Source: a virus. From it: DNA of 43,704 nt. Below are positions 3,361-42,369 of this stretch, piece after piece. A program made the translations under genes and the position numbers. Within the stretch, counting starts at the first letter, position 1. Each line of letters opens with the position of its first letter. The notes beneath the pieces are model-generated. The model searched no databases, was not told where the DNA came from, and saw nothing but the letters and a program-made list of their open reading frames with translations. Where the stretch lies: positions 1 to 43,704 of the IMG/VR virus record IMGVR_UViG_3300042541_001286; one strand, 5' to 3'.

Positions 3361-3368
3361 TATAAATA
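3361..3368 (+). promoter_or_regulatory. Late promoter TATAAATA
   Basis: Exact T4 late consensus octamer, only 7 nt before the ATG at 3376. Late transcripts begin about 5-7 nt after the octamer, so this mRNA should be leaderless or nearly so. Confidence 0.8.
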
Positions 3369-3375
3369 TTGTTAG

Positions 3376-3657
3376 ATGTTTAAAGGTAAATATAAAGAAA
3401 AAAATTCAGATGGTACACCAGTAGGTTATATTGGTGGTGATACTATTGTATATGAAGGTGTTATATACAAAGCTCTTTTTTCAACTTCAGTATCGCCTTT
3501 TCAAAATGAAAAAGACTGGCAATATATTGGTGTTAGTTCAATTTTCTCTTCCTCATTTCCACCAATAAATCCACAGATTGGACAACAGTGGGAAAACAGT
3601 GGAAAATTGTATACTTATTACTATGATGGTAATAGTTACACTTGGGTTGAGCTTTAA
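3376..3657 (+). CDS. Small virion-type protein with a carbohydrate-binding-module-like segment
   Basis: 93 residues. The ATG follows an exact late promoter by 7 nt and there is no Shine-Dalgarno sequence. Residues 18-52 show the pattern Y-I-G-G-D-x-I-V-Y-E-G-x-I-Y-K-A ... F-Q-N-E-K-D-W-Q-Y-I-G. This resembles small beta-sandwich carbohydrate-binding or chitin-binding-type modules in phage tail proteins. The second half (QWENSGKLYTYYYDGNSYTW) is aromatic and repeats a W-x-x-x-x-x-x-Y theme common in phage fibre ends. It converges on the minus-strand gene at 3654 and shares the TTAA at 3654-3657 for both stop codons. A surface-binding role is inferred; the hit is not specific. Confidence 0.45.
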   Translation: MFKGKYKEKNSDGTPVGYIGGDTIVYEGVIYKALFSTSVSPFQNEKDWQYIGVSSIFSSSFPPINPQIGQQWENSGKLYTYYYDGNSYTWVEL

Positions 3658-6005: not shown

Positions 6006-6013
6006 TATTTATA
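6006..6013 (-). promoter_or_regulatory. Late promoter TATAAATA (minus strand)
   Basis: The minus strand reads TATAAATA, the exact late consensus, 29 nt before the ATG at 5976. A normal leader with AAGGA lies between them. It drives the two structural genes at 5976-3654. Confidence 0.75.
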
Positions 6014-8522: not shown

Positions 8523-9101
8523 TTATGTCGCCTTTGTAATAGTAAAATCTCTAAACATCATTAACACTTGATAAACCAAATATCTATTTGTATCTAACAT
8601 ATTAAGTTCCAATGGTAAAGATTCAATTGGATAAACTTCAAAGAAAGTAAAACTTCGATTTATATTTCCATTGGGATCTAATAAATCTATTTTCATTTGT
8701 GAATTTGCAATTATATCATCATAAAAAGACAATTGAAAGGGTTTACTATAATCACCTTGTTGTCTACCACCCGAATATATTCTATTAAACCATGCATCAT
8801 AAAAATCAGTAATAAAATTATCATTAGTAACCGGAAACGATAACATAATACCCTGTGGAAATTTTTGTGATCTTGGTACAGTACGACCTGGACCATAACC
8901 AGCTAAGTTATCAGCGATACCATCAATTGCTCTGGATCCAATTGTTATAGCAATTGGATTTAAATCATTATTAGGAACAGCAGGAAGTCCCTCCGGTAAA
9001 TTAAAAAAGGACATAGAAAATCTATTATTTCTTTGAAGTCCTTTGTGTCTATCAAAAAAGTCTTTAATGGTTAAGATGGAATTATTATTTGGAGTTGGCA
9101 T
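8523..9101 (-). CDS. 54: Tail-tube-fold baseplate protein, gp54-like tube initiator
   Basis: 192 residues. T4 gp54 sits on the baseplate and starts tube polymerisation. It belongs to the gp19/gp48/gp54 fold family. Visible blocks include HKGLQRNNRFSMSFFNLP (residues 14-31), a GYGPGRTVPRSQKFPQG segment (68-84), DFYDAWFNRIYSG (98-110) and FFEVYPIESLPLELNM (residues 152-167). The pattern R-x-N-R-F followed by F-x-x-x-W and a late Y-P-x-x-x-x-x-L block is that of tube-like proteins. T4 gp54 is 320 residues, so this is a compact version. It overlaps gp4 by 17 nt and is followed by gp26. The exact gp54 assignment rests on fold type and place rather than a distinctive motif. Confidence 0.65.
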   Translation of the reverse strand: MPTPNNNSILTIKDFFDRHKGLQRNNRFSMSFFNLPEGLPAVPNNDLNPIAITIGSRAIDGIADNLAGYGPGRTVPRSQKFPQGIMLSFPVTNDNFITDFYDAWFNRIYSGGRQQGDYSKPFQLSFYDDIIANSQMKIDLLDPNGNINRSFTFFEVYPIESLPLELNMLDTNRYLVYQVLMMFRDFTITKAT

Positions 9102-9513
9102 TTGTAAATAAATCTTTTTCTGTAATTATTTTAAAAACAATATTATTTTTTAAACAATAGGTATTAGCCGCATCCCATTTGGCACTATTAATAACCCATG
9201 TAATTTTTTCTTTTTTAGAAGCATTTTCTTTTAAAAAGGTTTGTTTTTTTGGTTTTACTTCTATCATCCAATTTTGTAACCCCTCGTGGTTTTTAAATTG
9301 AATTAAAAAATCTGGAAAATAGTTGTGTATCTTCTTATCTATTGGATTGATATATGGGATTGCAATTTCTTCTGAAGACCATTTAAGAATACTTGGATGA
9401 TCATCACAAAATTTGCAGACATTCCTTTCCCACATAGATCTACAGACAATCTTAGAGGAATCTCCTGCATATTTTTTAATATTCTTTGGATTAAAAACCG
9501 ATCTATATGCCAT
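9085..9513 (-). CDS. 4: Head completion protein gp4 (PD-(D/E)xK-like)
   Basis: 142 residues (T4 gp4 is about 150). It finishes the packaged head before tail joining. Clear family blocks: FNPKNIKKYAGDSSKIVCRS (residues 7-26), MWER, LKWSSEEIAIPY (43-54), YFPDF with D68, and MIEVKPKK with E85 and K87. The SEE...PD...E-x-K arrangement is the nuclease-like core noted for this family. The ATG is 5 nt from the late octamer CCTAAATA, so the mRNA is predicted to be leaderless. It is the first gene of a minus-strand unit and is divergent from gp48. Confidence 0.9.
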   Translation of the reverse strand: MAYRSVFNPKNIKKYAGDSSKIVCRSMWERNVCKFCDDHPSILKWSSEEIAIPYINPIDKKIHNYFPDFLIQFKNHEGLQNWMIEVKPKKQTFLKENASKKEKITWVINSAKWDAANTYCLKNNIVFKIITEKDLFTNANSK

Positions 9514-9518
9514 AATAA

Positions 9519-9526
9519 TATTTAGG
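9519..9526 (-). promoter_or_regulatory. Late promoter CCTAAATA (minus strand)
   Basis: The minus strand reads CCTAAATA followed by TTATT and the gp4 ATG (9513), a 5-nt gap. It is divergent from the plus-strand octamer at 9534-9541, so one 35-bp region serves both operons. Confidence 0.65.
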
Positions 9527-9533
9527 TAATTTC

Positions 9534-9541
9534 TCTAAATA
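9534..9541 (+). promoter_or_regulatory. Late promoter TCTAAATA
   Basis: TCTAAATA is followed by TTACTAT and the gp48 ATG at 9549, a 7-nt gap with no ribosome site. It opens the long plus-strand virion operon. Confidence 0.65.
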
Positions 9542-9548
9542 TTACTAT

Positions 9549-10370
9549 ATGGCTAAATATTCTTTTAAATATCCCACTGGTCTTCCTGCAGCTGAACAAC
9601 CATTATTTTTAAACTTTTTTGCAGCAAATTATTCTTTAAAAAATAATGAACGAACAAGATGGGGTGTTATTAATAGAGCTTTTGCACACCTTCAGTTACC
9701 AATGCCCAAAGAACCGGGCTATTTAATTGCACATGAATTTGGTCAAAGTAACAACAATCCTGTTGGACCAATGTTAACTAGATCTGGTATCGCAAATGCT
9801 GGGGGTGGTGCTGGGGGTGCAATGAATGTATTAGCACGTGCAGCTCAACCGGCTACATTTTATTGGGAACGTATGTTTGCTACATCAACATATCGTAGAT
9901 TTAGTAATATTGCTGAAGCTACTATGGTATCTGAAGGAAGAAAAAAGTATTTCTTTCAATATTTACTTGTACCAAAAAATGAAGAAGATAGTGTCGCTAT
10001 TGAAGAAATTGTTGGTACCTTTAGAAAGTCTTCATATCCAACAGTTGCTTCTGGATTACCAGAACGATCATATCCACAAAATTTATGGTCACTACAAGTT
10101 ACAAAGGGTAATGTAGATGCCTTTGGTGGAGAAGCAAACTTAACAGCAAACTGGTTAGGAGAACCTATGGTATGTGTTCTAGAAACTGTAAAAGTAGAAA
10201 AAAATGATGCCAGCGATCCTGTTGTTCGATATCTTCCTAATGGTGGTTCTTCTATGACTTTACTGGGTCTTGTCTTTTCTGAATTTGAAACTGGAACATA
10301 TGATGAATCCGTAAATGCACTTAGATCCAAATCTGAAATATCTACCGCCTATTTTGGTACCTCCTCATGA
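9549..10370 (+). CDS. 48: Baseplate tail tube cap gp48
   Basis: 273 residues (T4 gp48 is 364). It caps the baseplate hub and forms the first ring on which the tail tube grows. Family blocks are ATMVSEGRKKYFFQYLLVPKN (residues about 124-144), EEIVGTFRKSSYP (about 151-164) and RSYPQNLWSLQV. A Gly-rich loop (GGGAGGA) at about residues 87-93 is probably flexible. The start lies 7 nt after a late octamer with no Shine-Dalgarno. The stop overlaps the start of gp53 (ATGA). The order gp48 then gp53 places it at the head of the baseplate cluster. It shares the tube-fold family with gp19 and gp54. Confidence 0.8.
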   Translation: MAKYSFKYPTGLPAAEQPLFLNFFAANYSLKNNERTRWGVINRAFAHLQLPMPKEPGYLIAHEFGQSNNNPVGPMLTRSGIANAGGGAGGAMNVLARAAQPATFYWERMFATSTYRRFSNIAEATMVSEGRKKYFFQYLLVPKNEEDSVAIEEIVGTFRKSSYPTVASGLPERSYPQNLWSLQVTKGNVDAFGGEANLTANWLGEPMVCVLETVKVEKNDASDPVVRYLPNGGSSMTLLGLVFSEFETGTYDESVNALRSKSEISTAYFGTSS

Positions 10371-11216: not shown

Positions 11217-13175
11217 ATGACAAATACTGACTCACGTTTTAATCCTGCGTATTCTACAATAAAATCTATAAGTTTATTGGCAACACGAGATTCTAATCCA
11301 GATTCTGGATTTGATGTTGTTAGACAAAATACTCAATGTAGATATGAACGATTAGAACTTGTAGAAAATATTAATGATGTTTTACCAACCGGTTGTTTAA
11401 TTGTTACTGACTTACAAGATATTGTAACGTTTATAAATGGATTTTCGTATATTTCAATTAGTTTTTTTTCTGGTGATCCAATTTTAGGTTCAATTACAAG
11501 TATATCTTATATCAATAATGCGGCTTCTGATAGCGATGATACTATTGTTGCAATTAATTTTACTAATTCATATTATAAGTACTTTTCTACCAAATCTTTA
11601 AGTGCATTACTTACATATAAAAAGCCTATAGTTTATACAGTAGATGAATTTGTAACACAATTAAAATTTACTTTTGGTTCAGTAGCCAGAGGATATCAAG
11701 ATAGTGCGACAAATTACTTTTTATATAAACCTCTGACCCCCTATGGAAGTGGAGATGAAACTACCCCAGATAATGCCATTGAAATGATGAATTATTTGAG
11801 TACATCAGCCATTGATAAAAATGGAGATCCTAATTTTCTTTTTTGGACTTCTTTTGGTGGAGCAGTGAACTTTAAGTCATTTAAAAGAGATATTACATCA
11901 GATGCGGAGTATGGAAATGCAAATAACATAGCAGTCTATGATGGTGATTCCGTAATACAAAAATTATCTGATGGTAAAGTATATCGTAAAGCCTATTTTG
12001 TTGCATCAAATCCAGCATTACAATGGATTTCTAAAAATTATTATTATATTCGTAAAACACCAAAATACTTAGATTCTATTATTTTAGATTCTGGTGCATC
12101 TGGTTTTACTGGAAGTGATTTAGCAATAGCTCAACAAAGTACTACATTAAAAAATTTAACGTTTCAATTTCAAGATGACGGTCAAAAATATAATATTGAT
12201 ATAGTTAGTATAGATGGTCGTGGAACTCAGGCACCAGATGGCGGTGATCATATTCTTTCCGAAAATGCTTGGGGATATTATGATCCAACTATACCAACAA
12301 ATGATAAATCAATTCCCAACATGTTGTCCAATCAATATGGAACCGATTTAAACTATAAAAATTTAAATTTTATGGGATTAAAAGAAGTTATGCCATTTTT
12401 AGATAGTCCAGATATGTGGAAAAATATGTTTGATTTGACTCCAATACATCCACACTATCCGGAGCAAGATAGTGTGACTCCTGGTTCTCTTTTAAGTGGA
12501 GATGCAACACATTTACAAAAAGTTATGGATATTAGATATGAGGTATTTGCTGGGGCATCTGGACCATCAGGAGCATCTGCTGCTGCAAGTAGATTAGAAG
12601 AAATTAGAAAAATTGAAGCGCAAAATTTTGTAATGTATTCTTTATGTTGTATGGGGAAAAAAGAAGATTGTTTCTTTGCTGTATTACAAAGATATGAACC
12701 AGATAACACTTACTATGGTGTAACGGGTGCATCTGATCCAATATTTCCAGGTTCTGCTAAATTTTATAGGTATAAATGGAATAAAATATTATTTGAACCG
12801 GGTTATGAAGGTGTAACGTGTGGAACGTGTGGAAGTTCTGGAGCATCTGCTGGTGTATCTGGTGCCACATCATATAGTCATCAATTAGAAAAATGGTGTT
12901 TAGACCCAACAACCAAATCAAGTGAGAAACAAGATGATACTTGGGCTATTAATTTAAATGAACGTGGTTTATCTGGTGCGTATTTACCACCTGGGTGGGT
13001 TAGCCCATCATTAGCATCATTCAAATTTAGACCAATCGGATCAACAATAAACTCTACATTTGGATCTGATGGTGGAGATATTTCGCACATTGCTAGAATC
13101 TGTATTGAACAGATTGATGCAAAAACACGAGTAACTTCATTCTGGATTGAAAATGTATTAGATGGGACATGTTAA
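11217..13175 (+). CDS. Baseplate hub protein, gp27-like N-terminal part with collagen-like linkers
   Basis: 652 residues. The middle (residues about 139-225) contains VYTVDEFVTQLKFTFGS, DNAIEMMNYLS and NFLFWTSFGGAVNFKSF. The last block resembles the hub domain pattern (A..LL..I...A......N..FW....G..F.S) of gp27-type hubs in T4-like phages. Gly-Ala-Ser repeats (GASGPSGASAA near 443-453, and CGSSGASAGVSGATS near 539-553) look like short collagen-like linkers. Cys pairs (CCMGKKEDC, CGTCG) suggest metal or disulfide sites. It lacks the usual C-terminal closing domain of such hubs, which instead appears in the next gene. It is followed 14 bases later by 13190-13984, so a split two-subunit hub is likely. 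T4 gp27 is 391 residues; no lysozyme domain is visible. Confidence 0.55.
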   Translation: MTNTDSRFNPAYSTIKSISLLATRDSNPDSGFDVVRQNTQCRYERLELVENINDVLPTGCLIVTDLQDIVTFINGFSYISISFFSGDPILGSITSISYINNAASDSDDTIVAINFTNSYYKYFSTKSLSALLTYKKPIVYTVDEFVTQLKFTFGSVARGYQDSATNYFLYKPLTPYGSGDETTPDNAIEMMNYLSTSAIDKNGDPNFLFWTSFGGAVNFKSFKRDITSDAEYGNANNIAVYDGDSVIQKLSDGKVYRKAYFVASNPALQWISKNYYYIRKTPKYLDSIILDSGASGFTGSDLAIAQQSTTLKNLTFQFQDDGQKYNIDIVSIDGRGTQAPDGGDHILSENAWGYYDPTIPTNDKSIPNMLSNQYGTDLNYKNLNFMGLKEVMPFLDSPDMWKNMFDLTPIHPHYPEQDSVTPGSLLSGDATHLQKVMDIRYEVFAGASGPSGASAAASRLEEIRKIEAQNFVMYSLCCMGKKEDCFFAVLQRYEPDNTYYGVTGASDPIFPGSAKFYRYKWNKILFEPGYEGVTCGTCGSSGASAGVSGATSYSHQLEKWCLDPTTKSSEKQDDTWAINLNERGLSGAYLPPGWVSPSLASFKFRPIGSTINSTFGSDGGDISHIARICIEQIDAKTRVTSFWIENVLDGTC

Positions 13176-13189
13176 AAGTAGGATATTAA

Positions 13190-13984
13190 ATGTCATCAAA
13201 ACAAATATATACATACGGTACAAATCACGGACAAGAAGCATTTTATCCTGTTATAAGCAGACACACATATGAGTGTGCAAATTCATCTATTACACGTGGT
13301 GTAACAAGTACACCTGGATCTATAGAAGAATGTTTTGAAAAATTTCCTAGCGTTCAGGAGATTGCTGAAGCCGTTGGGTTTTATAAGGGTGCAGTAGACG
13401 GAACATCTGGAAGTCCTGGTGGTGCAGCTGGTACATCTGGGAGTTCAGGTGGATTTACACTATGGGAAGGCCCAACTGGTTGTCCACCAACAAATAATAG
13501 ATTTACTTCATCTGAACCGGTAGATATATATTTTGATACTCCCAATGAAGAGTGTACTAAAATTAATAGTGTCTTAGGTACGGACTGGTTGGGTTGTCTT
13601 TGGGGAACTCCTTCCGCACCATATAGTTGTATATGTCCTGAAGTAAATCCTAATTACGAGGCATATATTAAACTTAGATTAAATGTAGCATCTTTTTGGA
13701 ATACTCCTGTTGAAACACCAGTAAAAAGAGCAGAATTTATTGATGCATTAAAATATGGGTCAAAAATTGATGTAACCATTGCAGGTGATTTTAATCTCAA
13801 AGTAGGATCTATTGTAAATTTACGCATAAATGGAATTAGTAGTAGACCATATTCTGCTGTAACTCCATCAGCAAATGGATCATATTATATTACGGGTATT
13901 AAACACGTTATTACAAATTCTGGTACACATGAAAGTGCATTGGCATTAACTCAGCTGGCTCCGCTTGCTGGTGGAACCTTTTAA
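13190..13984 (+). CDS. Hub companion protein with gp27-type C-terminal domain
   Basis: 264 residues, with GTAGGA before the ATG. The N-terminus (1-67) is unlike known proteins. Residues 70-90 are a Gly/Ser/Ala linker (GTSGSPGGAAGTSGSSGG). The middle has six Cys (CPP, C-T-K, CLW, CIC). The C-terminal 110 residues contain IDVTIAGDFNLKVGSIVNLR and SYYITGIKHVITN followed by HESALALTQ. This matches the closing domain of gp27-like hubs and gpD-type tail proteins: I.Gd..l..Gd.V.l....d..Y.It.v.H.........l.L. The shared linker type supports partnership with the upstream 652-residue protein. It is followed by gp25 with its own late promoter. Confidence 0.55.
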   Translation: MSSKQIYTYGTNHGQEAFYPVISRHTYECANSSITRGVTSTPGSIEECFEKFPSVQEIAEAVGFYKGAVDGTSGSPGGAAGTSGSSGGFTLWEGPTGCPPTNNRFTSSEPVDIYFDTPNEECTKINSVLGTDWLGCLWGTPSAPYSCICPEVNPNYEAYIKLRLNVASFWNTPVETPVKRAEFIDALKYGSKIDVTIAGDFNLKVGSIVNLRINGISSRPYSAVTPSANGSYYITGIKHVITNSGTHESALALTQLAPLAGGTF

Positions 13985-14003
13985 TATTTCATATTATTTT
14001 TAG

Positions 14004-14011
14004 TATAAATA
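14004..14011 (+). promoter_or_regulatory. Late promoter TATAAATA
   Basis: Exact consensus TATAAATA, 5 nt (TTGTA) before the gp25 ATG at 14017. With a start site 5-6 nt after the octamer, the mRNA begins at the start codon. Confidence 0.85.
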
Positions 14012-14016
14012 TTGTA

Positions 14017-14397
14017 ATGCCTATTAAAGATTTTTCAATATTGTTTGAAAAGATAACTACCAATACTAATAAAAAAGATATTGGTGTAGTTAGTGGTTTT
14101 AATGCATATTCACAATATATTGAAAATGTGTGTAAAACACAAAAAGGAGAATTAATATCTAATATGGATTTAGGTTCCAATTATTTTAATTTTATCTTTA
14201 ATGGTAAAGCAGATGTTGGATCACTAGAAAGTGTAATGGCTGCATATATTCAAACCGCAATACCTTCTATAAACAAGGTAAAGGTAAAATTACAATTTTC
14301 ATCTGAAACGGTGTTTCAATTTTTAATTACATATTCAATTTCAAATGGAATCAATAGCCAATCTGATGCATCTACATTTATCGAGGTATACCTATAA
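14017..14397 (+). CDS. 25: Baseplate wedge subunit gp25
   Basis: 126 residues (T4 gp25 is 132). It is part of the wedge core, with gp6 and gp53, that triggers sheath contraction. The signature block is in residues 30-60: AYSQYIENVCKTQKGELI then NMDLGSNYF (family pattern ai..si..il.T..GEr...pd.G). The Glu in GEL (residue 45) is conserved. It is leaderless by prediction, as the late octamer ends 5 nt upstream. It is followed directly by gp6 (TAATG junction), as expected for wedge partners. Confidence 0.85.
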   Translation: MPIKDFSILFEKITTNTNKKDIGVVSGFNAYSQYIENVCKTQKGELISNMDLGSNYFNFIFNGKADVGSLESVMAAYIQTAIPSINKVKVKLQFSSETVFQFLITYSISNGINSQSDASTFIEVYL

Positions 14398-15476
14398 TGA
14401 CATATCAACTAAAAAATCTTAATGTAGCTTCTTTGGACTTTGATGATATTAAATTATCATTAGTTAACTTTTTTAATCAACAACCTGATTTAGCTGATGT
14501 AGATTTTAAAAATGATGCAAGTGCTGCAAATTTGTTGGTAAATATTTTAGCAACAGTAACAGCATATAATGGAGTATATGCACAATTTGGATATATAAAT
14601 TCGTTTGCTACGACTACCACTTTAATGCAAAGTTTATTAGGAATAGCATCTAACAATTCTATTTTAATAGCCCCATCGCTCAGTGCGACTACAAATAGAA
14701 CTATTACAACAATAGGTGCAACTTTACAAGATTATACAACTTTTAGTGCATCAACAACAAAAGCATCTGGTGCATTCTTTTTTAATATTGATTCAATACC
14801 ATCCAATAAAAGTAGTTCTATTACTTTATATTCTGGATATGATGTTATAAGTTATACAAATTATGATTATGTAACTCAATCATGTCAACTACCATATTCT
14901 ATTGATCCACGAACAATTAGCTTTTATGAATCTGTAACCAATTCCGGAATAGTTACAAAGTGGACACGTGTTGATAAGTTTTCACCCACAAGTACTGGAA
15001 ATGACAAAACATTTACAGTTATTAATGGTCCAAAGGGATATATTGTAACTAATAAGTTTGTTACATCCAAAGAAATAACCACATCCAGTACAGTATTAAT
15101 TAAAGCCATTTCTTCAAATGGTGCTGATGCAAATAATTCTTCTATATCAAATAGAAGTGATGCTGTTTTTGTTACATTCCAGGTTCCTACTGGAGGATAT
15201 GATGAACTATCAGTATCTGAAGCACGATATAGTTTATTGTTTAATGCCACAGGTCAAGACAGATGTGTAACAATAAATGATTATATTAATGCAATTTTAA
15301 GTTCTGGAATTTCTGGAACCAATGATGAAAGTTTAATAACTGTTAAAAATAATTGTTGTGTTCCAGGTATAATTGATATATATGTAAGTGGTTTATCGGC
15401 AAGCAATCAAAGTGGTTTAATGGAATATTTGACCACACGTTGTGTGGCTGGTATCAGATTGGTGTATCAACTATGA
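14397..15476 (+). CDS. 6: Baseplate wedge subunit gp6 (shortened)
   Basis: 359 residues, against 660 in T4. gp6 dimers form the iris ring around the hub. The N-terminus carries the gp6 block LDFDDIKLSLVNFFNQQPDL (residues 13-32), then DVDFKN, AANLLVNILA (42-51) and a Y-N-G-V-Y segment. The C-terminal half has PTGGYDELSVSEARY (about residues 264-278) and TINDYINAIL (about 292-301), matching the J/gp6 pattern G...es....r..........vt..DY. The central region is much shorter than in T4, so this is a minimal gpJ-like form similar to those in P2-type baseplates. It overlaps the next gene by ATGA. Confidence 0.75.
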   Translation: MTYQLKNLNVASLDFDDIKLSLVNFFNQQPDLADVDFKNDASAANLLVNILATVTAYNGVYAQFGYINSFATTTTLMQSLLGIASNNSILIAPSLSATTNRTITTIGATLQDYTTFSASTTKASGAFFFNIDSIPSNKSSSITLYSGYDVISYTNYDYVTQSCQLPYSIDPRTISFYESVTNSGIVTKWTRVDKFSPTSTGNDKTFTVINGPKGYIVTNKFVTSKEITTSSTVLIKAISSNGADANNSSISNRSDAVFVTFQVPTGGYDELSVSEARYSLLFNATGQDRCVTINDYINAILSSGISGTNDESLITVKNNCCVPGIIDIYVSGLSASNQSGLMEYLTTRCVAGIRLVYQL

Positions 15477-16108
15477 TTACAGTTTTCAATGGACAACCTG
15501 TAACAATTGATACTAAAATGCTTTTAACTTCTCAAAGAGCAGCTGAATTGCTTGGAAGTGATTATAAAAGCTTCATAACAGAACCATGGTTGGGAGATAA
15601 ACTTACTATTTCTTCTTTATTTCCACAGTGGATTATAAAAGCATATGAAAATAATACTACAAATATTGCTGTAATACCTATAGTAAAAAATTATATGAGA
15701 TGGCTGTTAAGCCAAGAATATGGGTATGGAGCACAGTTAAACTGGGAAAATATTAGAGTTCCTTTATACATTAATTCTATATTTTTAGAAGCATTAGCGG
15801 ATTTTTATTTTCCTGGAGCCGATTTTTCACAAGAACCATTAAAATCAATATTACCTAATATTAGAAGATTTTTAATTAGGTCTGATCAAAATTATTTTAA
15901 TGTTAAAGGAACACCAACAGCAATAAAATATATAATTTGTTCGTTATTAGGTTTTAATTTGTCTGATGTCTCTGTATTTACAGGAAGTTATGTTACAATG
16001 GAAATAAAAATTGCAACAGCACAAGAGGCATCATTTGAAACTTTCAAACCATTTTTATCCAAGTATGTAATTCCGGCAGGAATTTCTGTAAACTATACTA
16101 CTATATAA
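15473..16108 (+). CDS. Baseplate wedge protein, gp7/P2 gpI-like
   Basis: 211 residues from the ATG at 15473, which overlaps the gp6 stop by ATGA; an upstream TTG at 15440 would overlap gp6 by 37 nt and is unlikely. In P2-type baseplates gpI is encoded directly after gpJ (the gp6 counterpart). The C-terminal half shows the shared pattern: IRSDQNYFNVKGTPTAIKYI (about residues 140-159), L-L-G-F-N and VTMEIKIAT, then YVIPAG, close to the family pattern f...KGT..si......lg....v..........v.v......f..v...i.PAg. T4 gp7 is a far larger protein, so the match is to the shared wedge core. The position strengthens the call. Confidence 0.6.
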   Translation: MITVFNGQPVTIDTKMLLTSQRAAELLGSDYKSFITEPWLGDKLTISSLFPQWIIKAYENNTTNIAVIPIVKNYMRWLLSQEYGYGAQLNWENIRVPLYINSIFLEALADFYFPGADFSQEPLKSILPNIRRFLIRSDQNYFNVKGTPTAIKYIICSLLGFNLSDVSVFTGSYVTMEIKIATAQEASFETFKPFLSKYVIPAGISVNYTTI

Positions 16109-16112
16109 TCTT

Positions 16113-16565
16113 ATGTTTAAAAAAATGATGATGTTTGCTGCTTCTTTAGCTTCTAGAGGAATAAGCAATACAAAAACCGATGTTCAAACAAAACAACTTA
16201 GGGTTTTATCGTGTTTTGGTGGCAGTACTATTAACACACCTTGTGTGTTTTTAAAAACTAGTTCAGTAGATTCAACTAAAAGTTATTGTGGGGGTTGTGG
16301 CTGTGGTGACAAACCACATACATGGTTACTTCAAAGTTCTGAGGAATATTCAAAATTGGATTATCCGGTTTTAAATTGCCCAATGCAGATGCCTGGATTT
16401 AGTAATTATGATCCAAATTTTAAACCAATAGAAGTAAAATTACGAAAAGAAATGATTGAAGAAATTGATCCAAAAGAATTGGAATTGATTCAAGTAACAA
16501 TAGGATCCAGTGAAGAAAAAGAACAGTTGATAGATAAAATAAACAAAATTGTTGAGAATTCATAA
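16113..16565 (+). CDS. Cys-rich putative metal-binding protein in baseplate/neck operon
   Basis: 150 residues starting 4 nt after the previous stop, without a clear ribosome site. It has C34, C44, C59, C62, C64 and C89. The block SYCGGCGCGDKPHTWLL (residues 57-73) is followed by KLDYPVLNCPMQMPGF (81-96). Two or more Cys clusters in this spacing suggest a zinc or iron-sulfur site. From memory, T4-like marine phages carry similar proteins near gp13, but I do not know a tested function. The C-terminal 40 residues are acidic and helical (LRKEMIEEIDPKELELIQ). The gp13 late promoter lies at its end. Confidence 0.5.
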   Translation: MFKKMMMFAASLASRGISNTKTDVQTKQLRVLSCFGGSTINTPCVFLKTSSVDSTKSYCGGCGCGDKPHTWLLQSSEEYSKLDYPVLNCPMQMPGFSNYDPNFKPIEVKLRKEMIEEIDPKELELIQVTIGSSEEKEQLIDKINKIVENS

Positions 16566-16568
16566 ATA
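16561..16568 (+). promoter_or_regulatory. Late promoter CATAAATA
   Basis: CATAAATA, 5 nt (TTTCT) before the gp13 ATG at 16574, overlapping the end of the previous gene. Predicted leaderless late transcript. Confidence 0.75.
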
Positions 16569-16573
16569 TTTCT

Positions 16574-17404
16574 ATGTCTATTACTACCCGACAAGAATTT
16601 ATTGATTACACATACCGCCGTCTTGGTGCTCCTGTAATTCAAATAAATATTGATGCAGAACAGGCTGAAGATCGTTTAGACGAATCTTTAGAATATATGC
16701 ACGAACGCCATTTTGATTTTAATGAACGTGCTCAATTTATTGTGCCTGTAAGTCCTACAAATATTTTAAATAAATATTTTGATACTAGTAATTTTGGTTT
16801 TGCAGTAGGTGCTCAGGGAGTAACATCAGCAAGTACAGGTATAACTGGATATTGGCCTGCAGCATCAGATATCAGAACTATTACCAAAGTTTATAAACCA
16901 GGTAATCAAGTTGGAGATTATATGTTTGATCTTAGATATCAAATGACACTATTTGATTTCTTTGGTTTATATTTTAATCAAGGTGGATTAGCTCAAGGGC
17001 CTATGGCATCATATATGGAAAGTATGTCATACCTACAGTTAATTAACGATGTGTTTAATTATCCGGTATCATACACTTATACACGAACAACTAATAGACT
17101 ATTTTTAGAAACAGAATATGCAAAACTTGTAGCTGGATCTTATATGATGGTTGAAGCATATGTTCAGGTTAATCCAGACTATTACTCAAAAATCTGGGGA
17201 GATCGTATATTTCAACGACATTATTCTGCCATGTTAAAAAAACAATGGGCACAAAACTTAATGAAATATGCTGGTATGCCGCTTCCGGGTGGGGCTCAAC
17301 TAAATGCTGGTGCAATGATGGCTGATGCTATTAGAGAATTAGATGCTATTGAAGCTATGTTGTTGAAAACACAAGAACTCCCAGTAGATCCAATGATTGG
17401 TTAA
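16574..17404 (+). CDS. 13: Neck protein gp13
   Basis: 276 residues (T4 gp13 is 309). gp13 and gp14 seal the packaged head and form the neck. The N-terminus has the family block TRQEFIDYTYRRLGAPVIQI (residues 5-24), then DAEQAEDRLDESLEYM (27-42) and ERHFD. Residues about 185-215 carry LVAGSYMMVEAYVQVNPD. A WGDRIFQRHYSAMLKKQWAQ block (about 211-230) and a Gly-rich loop (LPGGAQLNAGAM) near the end are also typical. It begins the long neck/terminase/tail/head run in T4 order. Predicted leaderless. Confidence 0.9.
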   Translation: MSITTRQEFIDYTYRRLGAPVIQINIDAEQAEDRLDESLEYMHERHFDFNERAQFIVPVSPTNILNKYFDTSNFGFAVGAQGVTSASTGITGYWPAASDIRTITKVYKPGNQVGDYMFDLRYQMTLFDFFGLYFNQGGLAQGPMASYMESMSYLQLINDVFNYPVSYTYTRTTNRLFLETEYAKLVAGSYMMVEAYVQVNPDYYSKIWGDRIFQRHYSAMLKKQWAQNLMKYAGMPLPGGAQLNAGAMMADAIRELDAIEAMLLKTQELPVDPMIG

Positions 17405-17405
17405 A

Positions 17406-18092
17406 ATGGCAACAAATCCATATTTAAATTTAACTTCGTATGGTCCAGAACAAAATCTTATTGAAGATCTTACTGTAGAATTGATTCAAGGTATGGGACA
17501 AGATTGTTCGTATGTTCCTAGAAAATATTTTAATATTGATAAAATATTTGGTGAAGATCCAGCATCGTCTTTTGAAAAAGCATACACCCTAGAGATGTAT
17601 GTTCAGTCATATAAAGGTTTTGATGGTACTGATGTTATTACACAATTTGGTTTAGAAATTAAAGATAAAATTACATTATTATTTGCTAGACGCAGATTTA
17701 AACAAGAAATTACTAATTTAGATTCTACGATCACACGACCCAGAGAAGGAGATTTAATATACTTTCCTTTATCTAAATCTCTTTTTGAAATTAATTTTGT
17801 AGAACATGAAAACCCGTTATACCCATTAGGTAAACTATATTCATATCAAATAACTGCAGAACTATTCACTTACAGTTATGAAAAAATAGATACCAATATT
17901 TCCGCAATAAACAGTCCATATACTTCAACGCAAGGATTTTCTGGATCTATACTTATTCCATTGGCTAATAATCTGGGAACTACTCTTGGAATCAATGATG
18001 TTCTTAAAACTGAAGGAAATAGTTATGGATTTGATCCAAACAATCCATTTGATGATTGTGGATCTACCAGTGGAACTGAAGGATGTAATTAA
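17406..18092 (+). CDS. 14: Neck protein gp14
   Basis: 228 residues from the ATG at 17406, one base after the gp13 stop; a TTG at 17397 that overlaps gp13 is not credible. T4 gp14 is 256 residues. The block VELIQGMGQDCSYVPRKYFN (about residues 25-44), with the GED following, is the gp14 N-terminal signature (iq..G.dvyYlPR....D.i.gE). FARRRFKQEI and RPREGDLIYFPL (about 110-121) follow, as in the family. The Gly/Ser tail is variable. The place between gp13 and gp15 agrees with T4 order. Confidence 0.9.
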   Translation: MATNPYLNLTSYGPEQNLIEDLTVELIQGMGQDCSYVPRKYFNIDKIFGEDPASSFEKAYTLEMYVQSYKGFDGTDVITQFGLEIKDKITLLFARRRFKQEITNLDSTITRPREGDLIYFPLSKSLFEINFVEHENPLYPLGKLYSYQITAELFTYSYEKIDTNISAINSPYTSTQGFSGSILIPLANNLGTTLGINDVLKTEGNSYGFDPNNPFDDCGSTSGTEGCN

Positions 18093-20848: not shown

Positions 20849-20856
20849 GCTAAATA
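20849..20856 (+). promoter_or_regulatory. Late promoter GCTAAATA
   Basis: GCTAAATA follows the gp17 stop by 4 bases and lies 23 nt before the gp18 ATG. A proper leader with TAAGGA is present between them, unlike at the leaderless starts. Confidence 0.6.
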
Positions 20857-26919: not shown

Positions 26920-26927
26920 ACTAAATA
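26920..26927 (+). promoter_or_regulatory. Late promoter ACTAAATA
   Basis: ACTAAATA, then TTTCACAAGGATTAC and the gp22 ATG at 26949. A leader of 21 nt with AAGGA is present, unlike at the leaderless starts. The same octamer precedes gp23. Confidence 0.65.
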
Positions 26928-27983: not shown

Positions 27984-27991
27984 ACTAAATA
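27984..27991 (+). promoter_or_regulatory. Late promoter ACTAAATA
   Basis: ACTAAATA, 31 nt before the gp23 ATG at 28023. The ribosome site AGGAGA at 28004-28009 is 13 nt from the ATG, rather far; a closer site is not seen. It gives gp23 its own strong late start. Confidence 0.65.
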
Positions 27992-29486: not shown

Positions 29487-29516
29487 GTAATAGGTCAGAA
29501 CTCAAGTAACAATTCG

Positions 29517-29548
29517 AAGCCCTCCTCAGAAATGAGGAGGGCTTTTGT
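29517..29548 (+). terminator. Rho-independent terminator after gp23
   Basis: AAGCCCTCCTCA, loop GAAA, TGAGGAGGGCTT, then TTGTTA. A 12-bp perfect stem with a GNRA tetraloop, 30 bases after the gp23 stop; it closes the long virion operon. Confidence 0.95.
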
Positions 29549-29553: not shown

Positions 29554-29561
29554 GATAAATA
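29554..29561 (+). promoter_or_regulatory. Late promoter GATAAATA
   Basis: GATAAATA, right after the gp23 terminator, is 5 nt (ATTGT) from the ATG at 29567. The start site should fall on the start codon, giving a leaderless transcript. Confidence 0.75.
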
Positions 29562-29566: not shown

Positions 29567-30091
29567 ATGAGCTGTATTTCAAATATCAATCCACTATATA
29601 ATAGTTACTTTACATTAGTGTTTGGTAGAGGAACTCGTCAATTTGAATTAAATTGTCAAAAAGCCAATTTACCAGGATGTACTGTTCCTGATACGAGTCA
29701 ACCTACAATTTTTGGTACAACTGTTCCAGTACCAACTATGCAATTTAATTATGAAACGTTAAATACCGAATTTATCATAGATTCAAATTTAACAAACTGG
29801 AAAAGTTTATATTCTTGGATGCGTAATATGTCTAACATTGACGATGATACAAGTCATAATTTGGATTATGATGAATGGCATAAAACAGCGACTTTATCAA
29901 TATATGATCCAATCTCACATTGTTCTACAACAACAGTTACCTTTAAATATATTGTACCAACAAAATTAACTGGTATCAATTTTCAAACCGATAGCTCAGA
30001 TGCAATAGTACAAAAAGCATCTTGTACTTTTAAATATTCTTATTATTCATTATGTCCAGATGCCCCAAGTATTCTTTCAGGTTCTAATTAA
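29567..30091 (+). CDS. Possible distant tail-tube-fold protein (hypothetical)
   Basis: 174 residues starting MSCISNINPLYNSYFTLVFG. The order (an N-terminal strand with an R near residue 22, then SLYSWMRNMS at about 84, then TATLSIYDPISHC and TFKYIVPTKLTGINF) resembles the layout of gp19/gp54-type tube-fold proteins. That similarity is weak and rests on pattern only. Four Cys occur in the first 75 residues and near the end. It is monocistronic with its own leaderless late promoter, right after gp23. It converges with the next minus-strand gene and both stop codons share TTAA at 30088-30091. It could be a head-neck or tail adaptor. Real as a gene; function unknown. Confidence 0.55.
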   Translation: MSCISNINPLYNSYFTLVFGRGTRQFELNCQKANLPGCTVPDTSQPTIFGTTVPVPTMQFNYETLNTEFIIDSNLTNWKSLYSWMRNMSNIDDDTSHNLDYDEWHKTATLSIYDPISHCSTTTVTFKYIVPTKLTGINFQTDSSDAIVQKASCTFKYSYYSLCPDAPSILSGSN

Positions 30092-30771: not shown

Positions 30772-32274
30772 TTATTTATCATCGGTAGGTAGTGGCATTG
30801 ACATTATTCTGTAATCAAACTTTTCTTTTTTATAAATTTTGATTCGTTCTTCGAAATGCCTATAAACATGGTTTTTATAAGACATGTAACAAAGGTCATC
30901 AACGATATCATAAACTTTCAAAGTTTTCTTTTTAGCAGATACTCGTAGACCTCTACCAATACTCTGTAGTAAACGAATTACAGATTTAGTAGGAGAGGCG
31001 AGTATAAGATTATCAATGTTGACAATGTTAATGCCAGTACTAGTAGTACCGTAACTCGCAACCAATATGGCATTAGTTTGTGTATCCACGATACGGCGAA
31101 TAGATTCTCTTGCTTCACTTTCTGTTTTTCCGTGAATAAGATATACCTTCTTATCTGTTCCTGCTGCTTCAATGAGAGCGTGGAGAGGTTTCCCGTGTCC
31201 TTCGACGTAATTGAAGAGGATGAGTGTGTTGCCTTTGGTGTGAATTGCGAGTTCTTTGACAAATTCATTCCTCCTACTATTACTTATTATAGCCTTGATT
31301 TCATCAGGATATTTTTGCTTCTTCATATCCTGCTTCTCTTGATCTGTATACTTCAATACAATACAGTCAACAGCAAGAGTAGCAAGCAATCCCTTGTTCA
31401 TAAGGTTCTTTGTATGAATAAATTGTACAGCAGGTCCTAGAATTCCTTCTATGCTTAAACGATGTGCTTGTGCTTGATCTAGTGTGCCCGTAGTGCCAAT
31501 ACGAAACCATGCTTTAGTTAACTTCTGACCAATTAGATTAATTGATTCTGCCTTGGCTTGGTGACATTCATCAAAGAAGATAGCGTCAAACTGATCAAAC
31601 CATTCTCTGGGCAACTTGTATATAGATTGCCAAGTAGAAACGATTACTTGTTTGTTAGTGTCTTTTTCAAGCCCTGCACTAATTTTATGAATATATTTTC
31701 TTGATAGCCAGGAAGGATCTGCCTTTGAGTAATCAAAGAAGTCGGTTTCCATCTGTGTAACCAGCCCTACCGTTGGAACCAAAACTAAAATCTTTCTGTC
31801 TGATTTTATTACGGATAGCAGATAGCGGAGCAAGACGTAGATTATTAAACTTTTTCCAGAACCTGTCGGAGATATTATTACACACCTGTGAGCGTTGATA
31901 GCGTGAAGAATTGCTTGGCTTTGGTGGGGGTGCATTTTGACCCGCTGCTTCTTTACAGAAACTTTCAGTGTCTCGTAGAAGTCCAGTAGTTTCTCCTCCG
32001 TTATGCATAGGGGATTCCTGCTCTCTTTAATGTTTAAAGTATATTGACGATCTTTACAAAACTTACTCAGGTAAGATTTAAGACCTCTTGGTAGGGTTGA
32101 AGATAGAATATCAAATAATCGTATCTTACCATCCCATATACGCCGTTTAAACAATGGCATATACTCAGCACCGGGAATCATGAACGAGAAATAATCTCTC
32201 AGTTCTTGTTTAACGCCCTTTTCTGTTTTTATATAGTAACGAACTTCGTCTACAGATTCAACTTCTACATCCAC
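30772..32274 (-). CDS. uvsW: UvsW-type RNA-DNA helicase
   Basis: 500 residues (T4 UvsW is 503). This SF2 helicase unwinds R-loops and branched DNA and helps switch replication to the recombination-dependent mode. Motifs are Walker A SPTGSGKS (135-142), DECH (235-238), GTTGT (260-264) and QSIGRGLR (437-444). The N-terminus aligns with T4 at the shared RDYFSF/RDFFSF and WDGKIRLFD blocks, which fixes the GTG at 32274 as the start. A stop codon (TGA) lies immediately upstream, so no earlier in-frame start exists. The late octamer CATAAATA ends 4 nt before the GTG, so the mRNA is leaderless. T4 uvsW is also a late gene. Confidence 0.95.
   Translation of the reverse strand: MDVEVESVDEVRYYIKTEKGVKQELRDYFSFMIPGAEYMPLFKRRIWDGKIRLFDILSSTLPRGLKSYLSKFCKDRQYTLNIKESRNPLCITEEKLLDFYETLKVSVKKQRVKMHPHQSQAILHAINAHRCVIISPTGSGKSLIIYVLLRYLLSVIKSDRKILVLVPTVGLVTQMETDFFDYSKADPSWLSRKYIHKISAGLEKDTNKQVIVSTWQSIYKLPREWFDQFDAIFFDECHQAKAESINLIGQKLTKAWFRIGTTGTLDQAQAHRLSIEGILGPAVQFIHTKNLMNKGLLATLAVDCIVLKYTDQEKQDMKKQKYPDEIKAIISNSRRNEFVKELAIHTKGNTLILFNYVEGHGKPLHALIEAAGTDKKVYLIHGKTESEARESIRRIVDTQTNAILVASYGTTSTGINIVNIDNLILASPTKSVIRLLQSIGRGLRVSAKKKTLKVYDIVDDLCYMSYKNHVYRHFEERIKIYKKEKFDYRIMSMPLPTDDK
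30773..30780 (-). promoter_or_regulatory. Late promoter GATAAATA (minus strand)
   Basis: The minus strand reads GATAAATA, 16 nt before the ATG at 30756, with AGGAGGG in between. It overlaps the stop codon of uvsW, so the Sm-like gene is transcribed independently late in infection. Confidence 0.6.
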
Positions 32275-32278: not shown

Positions 32279-32286
32279 TATTTATG
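32279..32286 (-). promoter_or_regulatory. Late promoter CATAAATA (minus strand)
   Basis: The minus strand reads CATAAATA, then TTGA, then the uvsW GTG. The 4-nt gap means that transcription starts at or just inside the start codon. Predicted leaderless. Confidence 0.75.
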
Positions 32287-32815: not shown

Positions 32816-33430
32816 ATGATTCCAAAAATTATTCATCAAATTTGGGTTGGCGATCAATCTAAACGCCCAGACTCACTTATACAAACATGGATTGATAAAA
32901 ATCCATCATGGCAACATAAATTGTGGACTGATGATAATCTTCCAGAATTAATTTGTAAAAAACAATTTGATGAATGCCCATCTTTACCAGGAAAAGCAGA
33001 TATACTGCGATACCAACTTTTATATGAAGAGGGTGGATTTTTTATTGATGCTGATTCTGAATGCATTACTCCATTAGATGATTGTTTAACAAACAATCAT
33101 TGTTTTTGCTGTTGGGAAAATGAAAATGTTAGAAGAGGTCTTATGGCTAATGGATATTTGGCTTCAGAAAAAGGATGTGAGTTGATGAAAACTATTATGG
33201 ATAGGATTAGTCAATATCCACACATGAATTATCCACCATTGAGTACATGGGAAGTTACTGGACCACTTCTTCTTACTGATACTGCTTATCAAACAAAATA
33301 TCCTATAACTGTATATCCAAGTTGGTATTTTATACCAAAACACTATTCGGGGATAGAATATCAAGGTTCAGGAAAAATTTACGCAAAACAATATTGGGGA
33401 ACCACTCCAAACAGTGGTTATGATTATTAA
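32816..33430 (+). CDS. GT32-type glycosyltransferase
   Basis: 204 residues. The start MIPKIIHQIWVGD is the classic opening of DXD-sugar glycosyltransferases (GT32, Gly_transf_sug). Then come WQHKLWTDDN (residues 32-41), LPGKADILRYQLLYEEGGFF (57-76) and the DAD motif at 78-80, where Mn/nucleotide-sugar binding occurs. It is the first gene of the cassette, preceded by GAGG and an early promoter. It probably transfers one sugar from a nucleotide sugar; the donor and acceptor cannot be told. The stop overlaps the next start by one base (TAATGG). Confidence 0.85.
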   Translation: MIPKIIHQIWVGDQSKRPDSLIQTWIDKNPSWQHKLWTDDNLPELICKKQFDECPSLPGKADILRYQLLYEEGGFFIDADSECITPLDDCLTNNHCFCCWENENVRRGLMANGYLASEKGCELMKTIMDRISQYPHMNYPPLSTWEVTGPLLLTDTAYQTKYPITVYPSWYFIPKHYSGIEYQGSGKIYAKQYWGTTPNSGYDY

Positions 33431-34185
33431 TGGAAACAGTTTCAATCGTTTTAAATTCATATCGTAGAACAAGATGGTTTGCTGAACAACATCAAGCTAT
33501 AAAAAATCAATCAGTGCCAATCAATGAAGTATTTGTTTGGCAGAACAAATCTGATTCTACACCTATAGAACAATCTAAAAAAGATGAAGTTATTTTTGTT
33601 GATTGTAATCAAAATTTGGGTGTATGGGCAAGATTTGCATTGGCTTTAAATTGTCGATCAGATTATATTGCAATTTTTGATGATGATACAATACCAGGAA
33701 CCAAATGGATTGAAAATTGCCTTAACACATATAAAACTCATCCAGGATTACTTGGAACAGTTGGTGTAATTTTTGGTGACAAATATTACACTTGGAATAA
33801 AGTAGAACGTTTAGGTTGGTGTAAACCAAATGAAACAGTCGAAAAGGTTGATATAGTAGGACATTGTTGGTTTTTTCATAGAGATCTTCTTCCTGTTTTT
33901 TGGAGAGAACTTCCACCAACAAACCAATTTCCAATAGTTGGTGAAGACATTCACTTTGCTAAAATGATACAAAAATATACCAATCAAGGTGTATATGTTC
34001 CACCACATCCAAAAGATGATTTAGAAATGTGGGGCAGCATAAAAGGTGAACCATATGGTCATAGCCCAGAAGGAATTTCTATGAATCTATATCAAGTTGG
34101 AAACATGAAATTGGGTGGAGGGCAAATGATGGCTATGGAACTTTCAAAGTCCGTTGACAACGGATTTAAATTATTAAGAGCATAA
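33430..34185 (+). CDS. GT2-like (GT-A) glycosyltransferase
   Basis: 251 residues. The N-terminal VSIVLNSYRRTRWF (4-17) and DYIAIFDDDTIPG (78-90) with the FDDD metal-binding motif are those of GT-A family 2 enzymes. A later GEDIHFAKMIQKY matches the catalytic-base/helix region (E/D-D-x-x-F), and Gly-rich MKLGGGQMMAMEL follows. The end is short. It overlaps the previous stop and precedes wecB with one base between the genes. It probably acts in glycan chain assembly; the sugar is unknown. No membrane segment is visible. Confidence 0.75.
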   Translation: METVSIVLNSYRRTRWFAEQHQAIKNQSVPINEVFVWQNKSDSTPIEQSKKDEVIFVDCNQNLGVWARFALALNCRSDYIAIFDDDTIPGTKWIENCLNTYKTHPGLLGTVGVIFGDKYYTWNKVERLGWCKPNETVEKVDIVGHCWFFHRDLLPVFWRELPPTNQFPIVGEDIHFAKMIQKYTNQGVYVPPHPKDDLEMWGSIKGEPYGHSPEGISMNLYQVGNMKLGGGQMMAMELSKSVDNGFKLLRA

Positions 34186-34186
34186 A

Positions 34187-35182
34187 ATGATATCTGTTTT
34201 TTATGGAACTAGACCAGAATATATAAAACTGTATAAACTTTATACAGAAATGAAAATTGCAAATTTTGATTGTGAACTAGTAAAAGTAAATCAACATACC
34301 ACGTTAATTGAAGATTGTTATTTTGATAGATTAGTAGATATATTAAATACTGACAATAATAGACTAAATTCAATTGTTCAACAAACTTTAAACAGTAAAT
34401 TATTTCTATCTACTACAACGCACGTGATTGTACAGGGTGATACAGCAACGAGTTTTGGTATATCATTAAACGCGTTTCACAACAAGATAAAGTTAATTCA
34501 CATAGAAGCTGGGCTAAGAACTTGGGATAAAGAAAATCCATATCCAGAAGAAACATACAGGAGATGTATTTCCAATATGGCTGATGTACATTTTTGTGTT
34601 TCAGAGTTAAATAAACAAGTTTTACAGAATGAAAAAGTAAACGGAACAATACATGTTGTTGGAAATACTGTTTTAGATAATTTGGATAATGAAAATGTAT
34701 TTTACGGAAATACCGTTCCCATAACTCTACACAGAAGAGAAAATAAAGACAGAATTGAAAAGGTATTAAAAGCAATAGATGATGTGGCTTTAAATTTTAA
34801 ACATTTAAATTTTGTATATGTAACACACCCATCTGTAACTATTGCTAATGTGTTTAATAATATTTCTGTAATATCTCCACAACCTTATTCAAACATGATA
34901 AATTTGTTAAAACAATCCAAGTTTATTATAACTGACAGCGGTGGTATTCAAGAAGAAGCATCTTTTTTCAAAAAAAGAACAATAGTTGTGAGAAAAGAAA
35001 CAGAAAGAAAAGAAGGTCTGGGAACATTTTCTGTTTTGGCATTTGAACCAATATACATATCAGAATGCATCAGAGACTTTGATAAATACTACGAAGTAAG
35101 TGAAACTTGTCCATATGGCGATGGTAGAGCCGTGGAAAAGATTATTAAAACGTTGAAGCAATATATAAATGAAATTATTTAA
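34187..35182 (+). CDS. wecB: UDP-N-acetylglucosamine 2-epimerase (WecB-like)
   Basis: 331 residues, a little shorter than typical WecB (about 375). It interconverts UDP-GlcNAc and UDP-ManNAc, a precursor for ManNAc-containing glycans. The whole signature set is there: YGTRPEYIK (residues 6-14), VQGDTATSF (82-90), HIEAGLRT (105-112), PEETYRR (120-126), LHRREN (181-186), TDSGGIQEEASFF (249-261) and VRKETERKEG (268-277). The stop at 35182 overlaps the next gene by 14 nt. It most likely supplies an activated sugar to the glycosyltransferases in the same cassette. Confidence 0.9.
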   Translation: MISVFYGTRPEYIKLYKLYTEMKIANFDCELVKVNQHTTLIEDCYFDRLVDILNTDNNRLNSIVQQTLNSKLFLSTTTHVIVQGDTATSFGISLNAFHNKIKLIHIEAGLRTWDKENPYPEETYRRCISNMADVHFCVSELNKQVLQNEKVNGTIHVVGNTVLDNLDNENVFYGNTVPITLHRRENKDRIEKVLKAIDDVALNFKHLNFVYVTHPSVTIANVFNNISVISPQPYSNMINLLKQSKFIITDSGGIQEEASFFKKRTIVVRKETERKEGLGTFSVLAFEPIYISECIRDFDKYYEVSETCPYGDGRAVEKIIKTLKQYINEII

Positions 35183-35864
35183 AAACGAAATTGAAAAACT
35201 ATTTACACGATTGATTTCCAAAAAACCATTTGCATTTAGTAAATATGCTGATGGCGAATGGATGGCAATGAATCAGGTCCCGGTATTTAATGGTGAGTTT
35301 AAAGCAGATTCATCAGAAAAAACTTTAAAATCAATTGAACTTTTGAGAGAATCATTTGTTTACAGAGATCCAAATTATTTTGTAGGGATTAGCTGCCCAT
35401 GTTGTCAAGGTCAAGCACATCAGCAAATGAAAATGATTTCTGGTCAAGATGAGGAAAATCTTACATATGCAAACATATTTGTAAACTCAAATTACCAATT
35501 TTATAAAGATAACTTTATTCCAGCATATAAAAATTGGAATGTTAATTTAGTAGCAAATGAAAACTCTGATATATCAAAGTTGCCTTTTGATGTAAGACGT
35601 TTTTATCCAATCAAAGTAAATGCATGGGTAGAAAATCTTGATTTAATTGAACAATTAAAAGATCTCAATACTGAAGGTGAATTATATTTATTTGCCGCAG
35701 GACCTTTTGGTAATATATTAACATATAAAATGTGGCAACATAATAAAAAGAATACGTATATGGATATTGGATCTACTTTAAATCCTTGGCTTGGTTTTGA
35801 AGGATTTAAACGTGGTTATTTACACGGTTCAGAAGATTTAAACAAGGTTTGTGTTTGGAGTTAA
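35169..35864 (+). CDS. GT-D-type glycosyltransferase (DUF1792-like)
   Basis: 231 residues. The N-terminal FAFSKYADGEWMAMNQV (residues 21-37) is the hallmark of the GT-D family (pattern ....RyGDGE.......), and the C-terminal AAGPFGNILTYKMWQHNKKN followed by DIGSTLN (about 176-203) fits it. A CPCCQGQAH segment (77-85) has extra Cys. Glycosyltransferases of this fold add sugars to protein-linked glycans in Gram-positive bacteria. The target here is unknown. Its last bases form the first unit of a 14-bp tandem repeat at the junction to the next gene. Confidence 0.65.
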   Translation: MKLFKNEIEKLFTRLISKKPFAFSKYADGEWMAMNQVPVFNGEFKADSSEKTLKSIELLRESFVYRDPNYFVGISCPCCQGQAHQQMKMISGQDEENLTYANIFVNSNYQFYKDNFIPAYKNWNVNLVANENSDISKLPFDVRRFYPIKVNAWVENLDLIEQLKDLNTEGELYLFAAGPFGNILTYKMWQHNKKNTYMDIGSTLNPWLGFEGFKRGYLHGSEDLNKVCVWS

Positions 35865-35883
35865 AAATATGGAGTTAAAAATA
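35856..35883 (+). repeat. 14-bp tandem duplication across a gene junction
   Basis: TGGAGTTAAAAATA occurs twice in a row (35856-35869 and 35870-35883), followed by TGGA. The first copy holds the stop codon of the GT-D gene. The second copy provides GGAG and runs into the ATG of the methyltransferase gene at 35883, so the copy created or preserved its ribosome site. Confidence 0.85.
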
Positions 35884-37219: not shown

Positions 37220-37220
37220 T

Positions 37221-39423: not shown

Positions 39424-39428
39424 TAACC

Positions 39429-40693: not shown

Positions 40694-40700
40694 TCAATTT

Positions 40701-42335: not shown

Positions 42336-42363
42336 TTGACAAATTCATTAATTATGCTATACT
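42336..42363 (+). promoter_or_regulatory. Early promoter TTGACA-16-TATACT for gp55
   Basis: TTGACA at 42336-42341, a 16-bp spacer and TATACT at 42358-42363. Six bases (AATATA) lie between the -10 box and the GTG start, so the transcript should be leaderless. It has the same layout as the uvsY promoter. Confidence 0.75.
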
Positions 42364-42369
42364 AATATA

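Follow-up and report, generated by a model that had tools for sequence, protein, structure and literature searches.

Late transcription in phage T4, by the gp55/gp33/gp45 system, is described in textbooks, and the late mRNAs have leaders with Shine-Dalgarno (SD) sites. In the T4 structural region the late octamers lie mostly 14-35 nt upstream of the start codon with an SD in the leader, and a class at 4-8 nt is missing there; a preliminary description of the DNA studied here had said that T4 makes most late mRNAs with leaders. The T4 region homologous to gp4/gp48 (T4 gp4/gp53) is 47 nt long, with crossed octamers and an SD beside each start. The marine cyanophages S-PM2 and Syn9 (NATAAATA) show gaps of mostly 19-40 in the stretches read, the gap being throughout the number of nucleotides from the end of the late promoter core TAAATA to the start codon. 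The start sites of Syn9 have reportedly been mapped in a transcriptome study. The T4 octamer occupies positions -13 to -6 relative to the transcription start (PMC1524935), with A(-13) as a base of the T4 late promoter (PMC2988020), and the first bases of the octamer vary in other T4-like phages too (PMC1524935).

Leaderless mRNAs are known from lambda, Caulobacter and actinobacteria, and are recognized by a promoter some 10 nt upstream of the start codon and the lack of an SD (PMC3160421). Leaders are said to be often absent from phage transcripts in general (PMC5312081). For the T4-like phages, our literature search found no account of leaderless late mRNAs, although subscription papers could contain one; this agrees with the preliminary description, which knew of no split between leaderless and leadered late genes in this group. 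A search for abutting late promoters in the pelagimyophages HTVC008M and Mosig likewise found no description, and a survey of pelagimyophage genomes called the standard detection of middle and late promoters unsatisfactory (PMC7029224). Thus, leaderless phage transcripts are known, and what is new is that a T4-type late regulon would use them systematically and at particular genes.

Late promoter spacing in the window

The window, by which we mean the whole stretch of 43,704 nt that was analysed, belongs to a freshwater-type T4-like phage; a near-identity search of a phage collection with positions 13000-18000 found no match. At seven genes of the window the gap from TAAATA to the start codon is 4-7 nt, and five leadered late genes have gaps of 16-31 nt with an SD after the promoter. 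All listed late promoter sites contain NNTAAATA, and their octamers follow the T4-type (gp55) consensus TATAAATA with a variable first base. The features are as follows, in window coordinates.

14004..14011, plus: gp25 late promoter octamer TATAAATA; ATG at 14017, gap 5, AUG predicted at +1
14017..14397, plus: gp25, baseplate wedge subunit, predicted leaderless (PHROG baseplate wedge families 120/261/43, weak E-values)
16561..16568, plus: gp13 late promoter octamer CATAAATA; ATG at 16574, gap 5
16574..17404, plus: gp13, neck protein / head-tail adaptor, predicted leaderless (PHROG 211)
9519..9526, minus: gp4 late promoter octamer, back to back with the gp48 promoter; ATG at 9513, gap 5
9085..9513, minus: gp4, head completion protein, predicted leaderless (PHROG 218, E 3e-50)
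9534..9541, plus: gp48 late promoter octamer; ATG at 9549, gap 7, predicted 2-nt leader
9549..10370, plus: gp48, baseplate tail tube cap, predicted near-leaderless (PHROG 230, E 3e-7)
29516..29545, plus: intrinsic terminator (hairpin) between gp23 and gp3, immediately 5' of the gp3 promoter
29554..29561, plus: gp3 late promoter octamer; ATG at 29567, gap 5
29567..30091, plus: gp3 (tail tube/completion family), predicted leaderless (PHROG 45, E 2e-28)
32279..32286, minus: UvsW late promoter octamer; GTG at 32274, gap 4
30772..32274, minus: UvsW helicase, GTG start, predicted leaderless (PHROG 16, E 4e-90)
3361..3368, plus: late promoter octamer of the 3376 gene; ATG at 3376, gap 7
3376..3657, plus: 3376 gene, small protein, predicted near-leaderless (matches neither PHROG nor Pfam)
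20849..20856, plus: gp18 leadered late promoter, for contrast; gap 23, SD AAGGA
26920..26927, plus: gp22 leadered late promoter, for contrast; gap 21, SD AAGGA
27984..27991, plus: gp23 leadered late promoter, for contrast; gap 31, SD AGGAG
30773..30780, minus: leadered late promoter of the 30756 gene, for contrast; gap 16, SD AGGAGG
6006..6013, minus: leadered late promoter of the 5976 gene, for contrast; gap 29, SD AAGGA

When all sites were re-read, the seven octamers were found where the preliminary description had placed them, and the four genes that it had named as leadered (gp18, gp22, gp23 and the 30756 gene) each proved to have a distant promoter and an SD. The 5976 gene adds a fifth to that set, and the gene at 29567 could be identified as gp3. 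As a separate observation, the TAA within the gp13 late promoter (16563-16565) also ends the reading frame of the gene before it in the window, and probably does so in many relatives too.

Could such sites arise by chance in A+T-rich upstream DNA, or from wrongly placed starts, the true ones lying deeper in the genes and having an SD? In favour of this explanation, the G+C content of the genome is 33%, and the number of TAAATA copies in the window, 89, does not exceed the 100 expected by shuffling. However, the position of the motif is far from random: the upstream background predicts 0.52 gene starts with the motif at gap 4-8, and 7 of the 46 have it (Poisson p = 1.3e-6); Markov simulations (n=2000) gave a mean of 0.57 and a maximum of 4.

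Conservation of spacing and of gene starts

Viral contigs were scanned with gp13, UvsW and gp48 as queries, and the three scans together yielded 236 related loci. Homologous starts were placed by tblastn, and gaps were measured on unique upstream sequences only. Each gene was found to keep its own spacing. The gap was 5 in 32 of 34 unique relatives for gp3 and 4 in 37 of 39 for UvsW; gp25 showed a gap of 5 or 6, without an SD, in 47 of 50, and gp4 a gap of 5 or 6 in 37 of 44. For gp13 the gap was 5 or 8 in 46 of 52 unique relatives and 6 or 9 in five more, and it was kept down to 50% protein identity. The range was wider for gp48 (5-9 in 37 of 43 unique relatives) and for the 3376 gene (3-7 in 7 of 10 relatives). 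The leadered genes of the same phages kept long gaps: 20-28 for gp22, 25-31 for gp23, 16-23 for the 30756 gene, 21-33 for the 5976 gene and mostly 15-25 for gp18. For most genes the gap is kept over 25-52 unique relatives, and the letters of the spacer vary between loci while its length is constant.

The SD followed the same division. It was missing at 249 of 250 unique sites with gaps of 4-9 (gp4, gp48, gp25, gp13, gp3 and UvsW) and present at one, whereas 134 of the 146 sites with gaps of 14-34 (gp18, gp22, gp23, 30756 and 5976) had one. With their gaps of 4-9, the 250 unique sites agree with the placement of the -10 element about 10-12 nt before the start codon that is typical of leaderless genes. 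Thus, the split between leadered and abutting genes is fixed gene by gene across the relatives.

The start codons themselves were also conserved. ATG was invariant across 34-52 unique relatives per gene, with a single GTG, in gp25, and UvsW began with GTG in 37 of 39 unique relatives. Codons 2-5 already vary as protein-coding sequence does, third positions most, and the conservation of the proteins begins at their first residues. The preliminary description had allowed that the real starts might lie further inside the genes with a ribosome site; these results give no support to such later starts. Together with the gaps conserved over 236 loci, they refute the explanation by chance or wrong starts, to which we assign a negligible probability. 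UvsW differs from other abutting genes in having GTG at gap 4, where they have ATG at gap 5.

Predicted 5' ends and the question of longer mRNAs

As the T4 octamer lies at -13 to -6, a gap of 5 would place the A of AUG at +1. The base composition at this position points the same way. The sixth base after TAAATA was a purine in 86% of the leadered promoters of the clade and in 85% of the promoters with gaps of 6-9; the start codon imposes nothing on base 6 of these promoters, so this evidence is independent of the ATG. A purine at base 6 supports the +1 placed by T4 numbering. By this reckoning only a gap of 5 is predicted to give exactly zero leader. Gaps of 6-9 would leave 1-4 nt, with the gap of 7 at gp48 and the 3376 gene leaving 2 nt, and at UvsW transcription would have to start at base 5, one position earlier than in T4, for the GUG to be 5'-terminal. 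Thus, the term 'leaderless' used in the preliminary description is apt at gap 5, but several of its genes are better called near-leaderless. Its broader prediction of leaderless late mRNAs beside leadered ones is supported by the T4 numbering, the conserved split and the context of gp3, gp4 and gp48, with UvsW as a misfit to the +1 rule.

It might be argued that TAAATA next to a start codon is no promoter but, as part of a longer leader, serves translation as an A/U-rich signal, for instance one for ribosomal protein S1. A/U-rich stretches can in general aid SD-independent initiation. However, the identical motif and flank (T-rich, with the purine at base 6) serves leadered genes from 16-31 nt upstream, together with an SD; the motif matches the consensus known for gp55, which the relatives encode; and no longer leader is apparent where the genes diverge or follow a terminator. 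We consider this explanation very improbable, and a purely translational signal was rejected on the grounds that the same motif serves leadered genes.

A further explanation is that the abutting promoters serve downstream genes of the operon, and that the first gene is translated only from read-through mRNA, by coupling or SD-independent initiation. Three points are in keeping with this. An SD is missing at many internal genes of the clade. The gp13 start lies 8 nt past the upstream stop codon, so that translational coupling on read-through mRNA is possible there. In the window, the interval between uvsY and uvsW contains no terminator-like site, and uvsY ends about 19 nt before UvsW, where coupling on a longer mRNA is also possible. 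Other genes speak against it. A terminator hairpin stands immediately 5' of the gp3 promoter in 31 of 32 loci, and gp4 and gp48, neither of which has a sense gene upstream, diverge from an intergenic region of mostly 31-38 nt; of 40 unique sequences of this region, 34 have the octamers back to back, each adjoining its own start codon. These arrangements make longer sense transcripts appear unlikely for gp3, gp4 and gp48. In addition, coupling does not require the sharp peak of spacing at 5. We therefore regard translation from read-through mRNA alone as an unlikely account of the abutting promoters, and prefer initiation at or next to the start codon.

In a distant group of five loci (L229, L233, L238, L239 and L241), in which gp48 is about 40% identical, the gp4/gp48 intergenic region is 25 nt long and without TAAATA. 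Instead, TATATATA stands about five nt before the gp4 start, and is perhaps a variant octamer at the same leaderless position.

A proposed dual-mode late programme and its distribution

Based on the spacing and its conservation, we propose that these phages very probably follow a dual-mode late programme, in which one gp55-type promoter (NNTAAATA) would drive two gene sets. In the abutting set (gp4, gp48, gp25, gp13, gp3, UvsW and the 3376 gene), the mRNA would begin 0 to about 4 nt before the start codon and would be translated without an SD, presumably by ribosomes that bind the 5'-terminal start codon. In the leadered set (gp18, gp22, gp23, 30756 and 5976), a promoter 16-31 nt upstream would provide an mRNA leader with an SD. 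Transcription by a gp55-type polymerase is well supported. The window itself is a 43.7-kb fragment; all eight large relatives searched have a gene for the late sigma factor gp55, at E 1e-35 or better. As for translation, internal genes of these phages often have no SD (e.g. g9101m, g11217 and uvsY), so the absence of an SD alone is no proof of leaderless translation; it is from established leaderless initiation (PMC9031893) that we infer translation from the 5'-terminal start codon.

This arrangement shares with the leaderless mRNAs of lambda, Caulobacter and actinobacteria the promoter about 10 nt before the start and the lack of an SD. It differs from them in that a phage late sigma factor would drive it and in that the split runs by gene class within one regulon. 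Caulobacter has 375 leaderless mRNAs and Sinorhizobium 171 (PMC4117421), and leaderless translation would be unsurprising if the host were alphaproteobacterial, as it is for HTVC008M. Two scans of bacterial-genome contigs for the host, with gp13 and UvsW, found no relatives, and a tRNA search for host clues in the window and 17 loci from large relatives found none.

What might such a programme achieve? One possible role is in dosage. In T4, gp3, gp4, gp13, gp25 and gp48 are minor virion parts, and gp23, gp22 and gp18 are made abundantly. The predicted leaderless genes of known role encode minor virion parts or an enzyme, while capsid, scaffold and sheath are leadered, and this division by gene class leads us to propose that the leader could set the amount of product. 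A second possible role is that of a lock. Early read-through RNA would carry the start codon internally and without an SD, and late initiation alone would make it 5'-terminal. For example, an early-type promoter before uvsY (32764-32737) would read into uvsW, where the GUG would be internal and without an SD. The locks of T4 gene e and I-TevI have the same outcome, in that early read-through RNA is silent and late-promoter RNA is translated (PMC3014915). However, the T4 genes have an SD hidden in a hairpin that late initiation removes, whereas in the window there is no SD and a 5'-terminal start is proposed.

It is conceivable, though we hold this only tentatively, that the presence of a leader is a built-in second layer of late control, with timing and stoichiometry set by spacing alone. 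Minor virion parts and UvsW would then be translatable only when gp55 initiates exactly at the start codon, and the abundant capsid, scaffold and sheath proteins would be made from SD leaders, across a large and widespread branch of T4-like phages. The spacing could thus be a simple means of setting protein ratios from one promoter class.

The distribution of abutting promoters was followed in two ways. In an annotation-free count, TAAATA sites upstream of an ATG with an open frame of 50 codons or more were tallied by gap. A peak at gap 5 appeared in the window (5 starts), in HTVC008M (12, against 0-3 at every other gap) and in Mosig (5, plus 4 at gap 8), and none in the stretches read of T4, S-PM2, Syn9, phiM7, Melnitz and AG-345-F15. 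Whole-record counts of TAAATA-N5-ATG compared with a reversed-pattern control gave 69 vs 16 in the window and four relatives together, 14 vs 4 in HTVC008M, 11 vs 3 in Mosig, 5 vs 3 in S-PM2 and 3 vs 3 in Syn9; part of this measure is noise, since T4 itself gives 10 vs 5.

The two pelagimyophages, both cultured on Ca. Pelagibacter ubique HTCC1062, share the abutting mode with the window. HTVC008M uses it largely at the same genes (gp2, gp4, gp48, gp25 and gp3 at gap 5, and gp13 at gap 8) and also at csgF; it differs in an extended TAAATAGTA motif, and the pelagimyophages belong to a different clade. Mosig shows it more weakly, at gp3 and gp25. Thus, the use of both modes, which the preliminary description had ascribed to this phage, is supported, but it extends to HTVC008M and, less strongly, to Mosig. 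In HTVC008M (L244-L245), terminator-like hairpins also stand immediately before the gap-5 promoters of the genes at record positions 6280 and 75559.

T4 has the same octamer and the same late genes as the window, and the same gp55-type late sigma factor as its relatives, and the cyanophages S-PM2 and Syn9 share the octamer, the gene order and the wider branch, yet in the stretches read their gaps are unlike those of the window and lack a peak at 5. In a quick tree of gp17 and gp20, the window clade forms its own well-supported branch beside the cyanophage-pelagiphage group. Given this position and the distribution, the abutting mode is either ancestral and was lost in cyanophages and Melnitz, or was gained twice.

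If the proposal is correct, a fixed subset of late mRNAs is predicted to be leaderless in a whole clade and in at least one cultured SAR11 phage, with exact 5' ends predicted for dozens of genes. The hosts of these abundant aquatic phages would then translate leaderless mRNA efficiently. Annotation would be affected too, since these starts would escape gene callers and promoter scans built on the expectation of a leader and an SD. The pattern is testable in cultured HTVC008M and Mosig on Ca. P. ubique HTCC1062.

Some minor observations concern neighbouring genes. A long run of genes at 32816-42250 reads like glycosyltransferases and sugar enzymes, of which the first (32816-33430) was the one tested, with a match to Pfam PF04488; no late promoter lies next to any start in this run. 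Before uvsY (Pfam PF11056; 32764-32730, minus) there is a sigma-70-like TTGACA-N16-TATACT with 6 nt between its -10 box and the ATG; it is kept in the closest relatives and not in more distant ones. Judged from this position, the early mRNA of uvsY may be leaderless too. A similar pair, TTGACA ... TATACT, stands at 42336-42370 (plus) with a few nt between its -10 box and the GTG of the 42370 gene, which is possibly another leaderless early gene.
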